A DNA stretch of 64,000 nt from Spirochaetota bacterium. Its GTDB lineage: Bacteria > Spirochaetota > Brachyspiria > Brachyspirales > JACRPF01. The notes under the pieces are model-generated. The model was not told the DNA's origin and did no database searches. It saw only the letters and a program-made list of their open reading frames with translations. Below are positions 33,804-35,838 of this stretch, in pieces. The number at the start of each line of letters is the position of its first letter. Position 1 is the stretch's first letter. The DNA is taken from assembly GCA_016214035.1 (NCBI GenBank), contig JACRPF010000014.1, forward strand, positions 1 to 64,000. The letters are read 5' to 3'. The position numbers were made by a program, and so were the translations under genes.

Positions 33804-34313
33804 GTGGAATTGATAGAACTTATCAGTAAGCGATATTCAACACGCGCATATCTTAACACGCCCGTTGAAGACGAGAAGCTCATGAAGGTGCTTGAGGCAG
33901 GACGTTTGGCTCCGTCCGCGTGCAATATTCAGCCGTGGCATATTATCGTGCTGCAGGAACCGTCATCTATCGAGAAAATGCGGCAGGTGTGCAGAGCCGC
34001 ATGGATCTTGCAGGCTCCGGTCATCATCGCGGTATGCATCGACAATGATAAGGCATGGAAACGCGCCGATGGTGTATCATATGCGTTCGTCGATGCGGCG
34101 ATAGTCATGGATCATATGATATTACAGGCCGCAGAGCTCGGCCTCGGCACCTGCTGGATCGGCGCCTTCAATGCGGCTGAAGCGGCATCGGTTTTCAACC
34201 TTCCCGGACATATCAAACCGGTTGCCATGACACCGCTCGGCTATCCGGACGATACACCACGGGAGAAAGTCAGAAAATCAATCAATGAGATAGTTCACTG
34301 GGAAAAGTTCTGA
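33804..34313 (+). CDS. Nitroreductase-family flavoprotein
   Basis: 169 residues from a GTG at 33804 that has GAGGAG 6 bases upstream; a longer frame begins upstream without such a site. The N-terminus (ELISKRYSTRAYLNTPVED) and LAPSACNIQPWHIIVL form the FMN-binding signature. DAAIVMDHMILQAAELGLGTCWIGAF and the terminal PLGYPDDTPREK complete the fold. Members are homodimeric NAD(P)H-dependent FMN reductases of quinones and nitro compounds; some take part in cofactor breakdown. The physiological substrate is unknown. A second member of the family lies at 59734. Confidence 0.9.
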   Translation: MELIELISKRYSTRAYLNTPVEDEKLMKVLEAGRLAPSACNIQPWHIIVLQEPSSIEKMRQVCRAAWILQAPVIIAVCIDNDKAWKRADGVSYAFVDAAIVMDHMILQAAELGLGTCWIGAFNAAEAASVFNLPGHIKPVAMTPLGYPDDTPREKVRKSINEIVHWEKF

Positions 34314-34330
34314 CACAACGGTGTTCGAGC
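34312..34330. repeat. 19-bp direct repeat, first copy
   Basis: GACACAACGGTGTTCGAGC, 18 of 19 bases identical to 34548-34566. It begins inside the nitroreductase stop codon. Confidence 0.8.
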
Positions 34331-34410
34331 AGGTAAGGCAGCAGCGCGAGCAGAATTCGACTGCGATGATGCTGGTACGGTTTTTATAACGCCCCTTCCT
34401 CCAGCTGGCC

Positions 34411-34460
34411 TCGGCTGCGCTCGGCCCAACGCCATTCCCCGCATGTTCGCCTGCGGCTCA
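34411..34460. repeat. Dispersed intergenic repeat, diverged copy R3
   Basis: Contains TGCGCTCGGC...ACGCC followed by the hairpin CCGCA-TGTTCGCC-TGCGG, matching the order and pairing of copies R1 and R2, though base identity is low. Confidence 0.35.
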
Positions 34461-34547
34461 CCGACGGCAGGGCAGGAGAGCGCTAGTTGCATGACGAAAG
34501 TCGATACTCTTTTTTCTCATTTACTTACAAGTATACGAAAGAAAAAA

Positions 34548-34566
34548 GACACAACGGCGTTCGAGC
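34548..34566. repeat. 19-bp direct repeat, second copy
   Basis: GACACAACGGCGTTCGAGC, 236 bases after the first copy. Its ACAACG also pairs with CGTTGT just downstream to form a small hairpin. Confidence 0.8.
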
Positions 34567-34628
34567 GTTGTAAGAACAATGACATGGAATTACAATACCA
34601 CCATCAATATCAACAGCGCGTGAGGCGA

Positions 34629-34797
34629 GGGGAGAAATGTCTTTCTGAGCATCGTGCTTACTGAATAATAGTTATGAAATATGTTATTCAGAAAAAACGA
34701 AACTACAAAAAAGCGGCAAGGATGCCGCGTATGCGACGAATCCGTCCACGGAAGGACGGCTGAGTCGCGCACGGTGCGAAGAAAGACATTTCTCCCC
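34629..34797. other. Candidate structured RNA or MITE-like element closed by an 18-bp inverted repeat
   Basis: The ends are exact inverse complements over 18 bases (GGGGAGAAATGTCTTTCT at 34629-34646 and its complement at 34780-34797). Inside lie five hairpins in series: AGCA-TCG-TGCT (34648-34658), CTGAATAA with TTATTCAG (34661-34691), GCGGCA-AGGA-TGCCGC (34713-34728), CCGTCC with GGACGG (34742-34759) and TCGC with GCGA (34765-34779). Almost every base outside an A-rich linker (34692-34712) belongs to a stem or loop. The orientation of any transcript is unknown. I saw no target-site duplication next to the ends and no second copy in the window. Confidence 0.6.
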
Positions 34798-34833
34798 GAA
34801 CAATAGCGCGCGCCTTCGGCCCGCGGCCAGCGC

Positions 34834-35838
<1,005 letters not shown>

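Follow-up and report, generated by a model that had tools for sequence, protein, structure and literature searches.

A dispersed intergenic repeat family in a Spirochaetota genome, probably selected as folded RNA and carrying candidate CsrA-binding loops

Introduction

Dispersed repeats of bacterial genomes are usually regarded as decayed transposons. The BOX, RUP and SPRITE repeats of S. pneumoniae are modular composites, with different units clustered or nested in intergenic spaces. Prokaryotic MITEs such as Correia, ERIC and QMITE2 are palindromic intergenic elements of about 120–230 bp, present in tens of copies and often located near 3′ gene ends, with stable stem-loop transcripts and no coding capacity (PMC10969869). 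REP/BIME sequences are extragenic and dispersed; REPs are 20–40 bp hairpins with a tagged end, and the associated RAYT gene is flanked by the same repeat (for example, PMC3733652). The sponge RNAs CsrB, CsrC, RsmY and RsmZ carry hairpins whose loops, ANGGAN or CAGGA(U/A/C)G, are bound by CsrA/RsmA; ANGGAN in a hairpin loop is the recognition motif of RsmE, RsmN and CsrA, and CsrB has CAGGA(U/A/C)G repeats (PMC3791407, PMC7652899).

Located in the window (the whole 64,000-nt stretch of contig JACRPF010000014.1 analysed here) is an element with some features of each of these systems, which belongs to a repeat family that is previously undescribed and fits no named one. The family shares the listed properties of MITEs, its stem-loop transcripts being predicted ones, and has terminal inverted repeats, but these have no fixed sequence and their arms covary; its interior is exchanged between structured classes, its apical loops are conserved, and no target duplication was seen and no autonomous parent found. 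As with REP/BIME systems, the genome also encodes RAYTs, but the element is branched and 160–200 nt long, and no copy flanks a RAYT gene. Its modularity recalls BOX, RUP and SPRITE, whereas its modules have a closing-helix architecture in common around RNA interiors that differ (BOX being taken here by its general description); we know of no sequence match between these repeats and the family. Unlike the CsrB-type sponges, which have many sites in one RNA gene, it has one or two predicted sites per element at tens of loci, and no Rfam match.

Architecture of the element

The element is closed by exact 18-nt inverse-complement arms around 133 nt (34647–34779), as the original prediction stated, and the inverted repeat as a whole reaches 29 nt at 90% complementarity (Table 1). 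Folding of 34629–34797 gives a minimum free energy of −89.0 kcal/mol on the + strand, far below the −38.8 ± 3.6 kcal/mol of dinucleotide shuffles (z −13.8), and of −79.8 kcal/mol on the − strand (z −10.6).

Stacked on the closing helix P1, across a 2×2 tandem G·A internal loop, is a second helix, P2. Inside P2 are a linker with an A/T-rich hairpin (34661–34691) that is unconserved and present in this copy alone, and the conserved hairpins P3 and P4; the five further hairpins in series that had been proposed for the interior give way to this arrangement. The loop of P3 is AAGGAT here and mostly ACGAT elsewhere in the family. P4 contains a tandem G·A internal loop of its own (34738–34739 opposite 34762–34763), and the feet flanking P1 appear, by inspection, to form a further tandem G·A and an outer helix. 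The G·A loops are symmetric and the 3-nt bulge is absent, and a kink-turn is not claimed. A coding role was also rejected, as the frame over 34590–34664 is interrupted by stops in the other copies read.

Upstream of the left foot are two modules, B and A. A partial second start of module B (GACACAACGGTGTTCGAGC) lies at 34312–34330, over the stop codon of the nitroreductase-like open reading frame and 236 nt 5′ of the full module B; the two starts, at 34312–34330 and 34549, can be read as nested or successive insertion.

Table 1. Positions of element features in the window, and of Y1/RAYT-like transposase loci in the same genome
Feature	Position	Strand	Remarks
Module A, ATTCGACTGCG..., long left extension	34354..34548	+	common to about 12 loci
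Module B, CAACGGCGTTCGAGCG...TACCACCATCA	34549..34611	+	precedes many copies, all classes
Left foot, GCGCG...GCGA	34616..34628	+	conserved in classes I–III
P1 left arm, closing helix, 18 bp	34629..34646	+	covaries with right arm, 27 copies
P2 left arm, 9 bp	34649..34657	+	fold and covariation
Hypervariable A/T-rich linker	34658..34712	+	unconserved in alignment A1
P3 hairpin, GCGGCA-AGGA-TGCCGC	34713..34728	+	fold, covariation; conserved
P4 domain, GCGAC-GAAU-CCGUCC[ACGGAA]GGACGG-CUGA-GUCGC	34733..34768	+	best-conserved part, all class I copies
P4 hexaloop, ACGGAA = ANGGAN, CsrA/RsmE-type site	34748..34753	+	ANGGAN in 27/27 copies
P2 right arm	34769..34777	+	fold and covariation
P1 right arm, closing helix	34780..34797	+	covariation with left arm
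Right foot, GAAC..GCGCGCG	34798..34812	+	21 nt from asd stop codon (34834)
Y1/RAYT-like transposase loci	L055:1408-2007; L054:1198-1989; L056:1300-1869		

A family of four interior classes

About 70 copies of the element, divided among four interior classes, are scattered in the genome, every copy examined being intergenic and in an unrelated place. A DNA search of the genome gave dozens of partial matches, and a class I covariance model from 27 copies (R1) found at least 31 class I copies at ≥95 bits, including that at 34629–34797; the further copies that the original prediction called for do exist. Classes II–IV were resolved from weaker matches. Class II (about 158 nt; model R2 gives 29 copies or more) has a UGUUUGAGCA...UGCGAGUU core, class III (at least 6 copies; about 122 nt) consists of P3 and P4 with the linker missing, and class IV (at least 3 copies) carries GUCAAGUCCYCCGGGACUAG.

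The left-hand modules are common to classes I–IV, module B being absent from several copies, and the foot sequence CGCGCG..GCGAAGG / CCGAGC..CGCGCG to classes I–III. P1 arms, varying in sequence with covariation, close all complete copies, and the two-step closing-helix architecture recurs in classes II and III around different interiors. Tandem arrays (I–II–II at L029, III–IV at L089, I–II at L033), chimeric copies, nested extra hairpins (L033, L035) and one-armed fragments (L036, L040, L041, L043) all occur. The class II pair L088/L106, at unrelated loci, is 92% identical, with module B at one locus and absent at the other. An inverted-repeat scan of 1.2 Mb of the genome (seed ≥12 nt, arms 50–320 nt apart) returned nine repeats, all nine of which belong to the family, and none in a 436-kb Markov control. 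On inspection no reading frame is conserved among the copies of this short, non-coding, dispersed family.

Class III elements at L098:1197-1359 and L099 (reverse strand) are identical over about 125 nt, at paralogous loci comprising an ECF-sigma-like gene and a gene of unknown function whose flanking genes are clearly diverged (72% identical over the whole alignment); this identity fits strong constraint or gene conversion. The class IV copies (L105:1197-1700, L104 and L089) share a highly conserved GUCAAGUCCCCCGGGACUAGUUUUGCGGC core, and two of the three lie behind module A.

Covariation and the folded strand

In the class I consensus structure (27 copies), 96.6% of cells are paired, and 26 of 41 pairs in the helices have changes on both sides, so the stems do covary, a check proposed with the original prediction. 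No shuffle reached either value, and sliding the partner by 1–3 columns left at most 53% of cells paired and at most 9 pairs changed on both sides. A closing helix of like kind is seen in classes II and III.

Read on the + strand, G·U pairs outnumber A·C pairs in class I (44 versus 11), class II (15 versus 3) and class III (13 versus 4), or 72 versus 18 in sum, four to one, which argues that the + strand is the selected, folded single strand, as RNA or as ssDNA. Copies are 70–90% identical, with linkers saturated to the point of being unalignable and stems about 97% paired; the structure has thus been kept for longer than the sequence. In the P4 stem, four of six pairs never vary, more invariance than CsrA hairpins need. 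A link between orientation and replication was rejected: on three contigs, the strand of the element did not follow GC skew consistently.

Hairpin loops and CsrA

The tip of P4 in class I is C[ANGGAN]G in all 27 copies, with all four bases found at both N positions. The P3 loop is mostly ACGAU, with AGGAU in six copies and ANGGAU in two. Class I copies carry one strict ANGGAN site, or two in 2 of the 27, with more in L033-type copies; the several sites per RNA of CsrB-type sponges are not found in class I. Class III loops are CACGGAUG or a CNGGAN variant, together with CAGGA(A/U)G. Of the 99 hairpin loops predicted in classes I and III, 46 contain GGA, compared with 26 of 555 in shuffles. When the 256 hexaloop patterns are ranked across 1.2 Mb of the genome, ANGGAN comes top for stems of both five and six pairs, and about half of the cases with six-pair stems are family members. 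In class II the GGA hairpin is absent, and CsrA binding therefore cannot account for all the classes.

The genome encodes CsrA (98 aa, L115:1360-1656, − strand), with the gene for FliW adjacent. The loops suggest that the element could plausibly bind CsrA, a reading that we hold tentatively. Against it weigh the usual ACGAU loop of P3 in class I, the invariance of the P4 stem and the family's own share, about half, of the ANGGAN excess in the genome.

Occurrence in other genomes

Class I sequence was found in none of about 85,000 GTDB genomes, IMG/VR or 392 other genomes of the phylum. Searches with the exact P4 pattern gave no match in GTDB r220 genomes or IMG/VR, the exact class IV pattern none in GTDB genomes, and the class III pattern none in IMG/VR. 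The R1 model, run over 393 phylum genomes, gave nothing convincing in the 392 others (a partial 31.9-bit match in one, L087, was judged to be chance), nor in 38 relatives with laxer filters. No Rfam family scores above its gathering threshold for the element, and sub-threshold matches to known RNA families were attributed to chance. In the genomes searched, the repeat family is lineage-specific.

Outside the genome, R2 detected one class II homologue, in the sister genus G001, the only same-family relative (C49:19248-19394, E 2.9e-9). It lies between convergent genes and keeps a UGUGCGAGCA...UGCGAGUU core and the closing-helix plan, with different stem sequences. G001 also has structured repeats (L222, L225, L200, L213 and L186) with unrelated closing stems, in which ANGGAN is carried on the unrelated stems GCAAC, GGC, GCGCC, GGCC and GCGGC; in its interior hairpins the stem is variable and the loop fixed. 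On the 3′ side of asd in G001 the element is absent and the neighbouring gene is different.

Gene neighbourhood

The element sits between the nitroreductase-like open reading frame (ending at 34313) and asd (stop codon at 34834, − strand). This copy does have the convergent setting originally described, and the family shows an excess of it: in a survey of 59 copies, convergent genes make up 38 of 54 right-hand neighbours, 19 of them at 12–36 nt from the right end as modelled. Neighbours on the right that start downstream are mostly 75–200 nt away, and many copies are found 5′ of genes or have co-oriented genes on both sides. The right end tends to lie a few tens of nucleotides past a convergent gene's stop codon, a preference that the left end does not show. 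An intrinsic terminator was rejected, in agreement with the original prediction: the U-run is absent, no + strand terminator was found, and the sole match is on the − strand, at the P3 hairpin. Preceding the element is one weak promoter-like (−35/−10-like) match (34568–34596).

Proposed function and alternative explanations

That the family is dispersed and under selection as RNA is quite likely; the noncoding RNA and the palindromic mobile element, offered originally as two possible readings, are both supported together, by dispersed multi-copy repeats and by covarying structure on one strand. On balance we favour 34616–34812 being a copy of a lineage-specific, dispersed, non-autonomous MITE/ERIC/BOX-like repeat that functions as + strand RNA, with CsrA binding as the preferred but uncertain mechanism. 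The family is probably mobile. P1 and P2 form a long, near-continuous helix with G·A-stabilised junctions, holding two short hairpins. Copies may have spread by transposition, may sit in transcripts that pass through gene ends and leaders, and may be retained because the folded RNA does something. The hairpin tips would bind CsrA, a dimer of which can bridge two loops, making the copies local CsrA sites or, collectively, a decoy, and the P1–P2 duplex might protect transcript ends or be cut there by RNase III.

Several alternatives bear on the same evidence. One is purely selfish DNA, in which a tyrosine transposase of the Y1 (RAYT/IS200-like) type moves a MITE or a REP/BIME-like repeat in the form of ssDNA hairpins. 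The structure would then be needed for transposition alone, and the covariation would reflect lineages of active copies. Copies are indeed dispersed, truncated, chimeric and in tandem arrays, the genome encodes three Y1 transposases, one of them above the NCBIfam RAYT cut-off, and the single-strand bias would equally fit recognition of top-strand ssDNA. We nevertheless consider this account unlikely: the ends flanking the three Y1 genes (IS200/605-type ends) do not match the element, and two of these genes have adjacent palindromes, which are unlike it; stems 97% paired in copies 70–90% identical, with saturated linkers, indicate a structure that outlived neutral decay; and apical loops conserved across genera on unrelated stems are not required by transposition alone. 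Against the favoured reading itself, no target-site duplication was defined, the element ends not being sharp on flank inspection, and none of the transposases compared (Y1 type) could be linked to those ends; no open reading frame lies between the matching arms in the copies read. Paired changes can also arise in long inverted repeats by template switching, and such palindrome correction between arms that are near-perfect complements in most copies could give those of P1–P2 without selection; it predicts no strand bias, however, against the G·U excess in classes I–III, and leaves the invariant loop and internal-loop bases unexplained, so that it is already disfavoured and highly improbable.

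A role at 3′ ends, in which the element serves convergent genes as an RNA barrier in both directions or as a stabiliser and the P1–P2 duplex acts through RNase III or an exonuclease block with no specific ligand, would account for the convergent right-hand neighbours clustered at 12–36 nt and for the very stable fold on both strands. We find it improbable, given the missing U-run, the many copies upstream of genes or between co-oriented genes, and the invariant P4 loop, internal loop and G·U strand bias, which a bare stabiliser does not explain. Equally improbable is a family of free-standing small RNA genes with their own promoters in module B: this module is conserved upstream of many copies in all classes, and the −35/−10-like match lies within it, but several copies lack it, and the right end continues into the adjacent gene with no terminator after it.

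Compensatory change has preserved an RNA fold in tens of copies, structured interiors are exchanged on one closing-helix plan, and the apical loop common to two genera matches the textbook site at which a global regulator binds RNA. Should CsrA bind it, the family would be a distributed regulatory sponge and a route for selfish DNA to rewire post-transcriptional control. A CsrA network borne by mobile elements, in which dispersed repeats of two genera on unrelated scaffolds each present one or two ANGGAN hairpins to a CsrA dimer, is conceivable, and we advance it with some reserve. In that case the repeats across the genome would together form a distributed CsrA decoy, or would bring neighbouring genes under CsrA control; the only other type of CsrA antagonist recognised in the genome is FliW.

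Other short palindromes

Short GAAGG...CCTTC REPs like the palindrome beside the RAYT gene at L055 were not found in 1.2 Mb of the genome. Other short palindromes, GAAGGTGCGGATATATATCCGCGCCTTC and CAAGGGGCTNNAGCCCCTTG, occur near at least two of the three Y1/RAYT-like genes. In G001, a high-copy short palindrome, CCCCTCTCTCAC-(A/G)GGGAA-GTGAGAGAGGGG (L206:9909-10087, L187, L196, L197, L211 and L222), constitutes a REP-like family, and its loop, too, contains GGGA.
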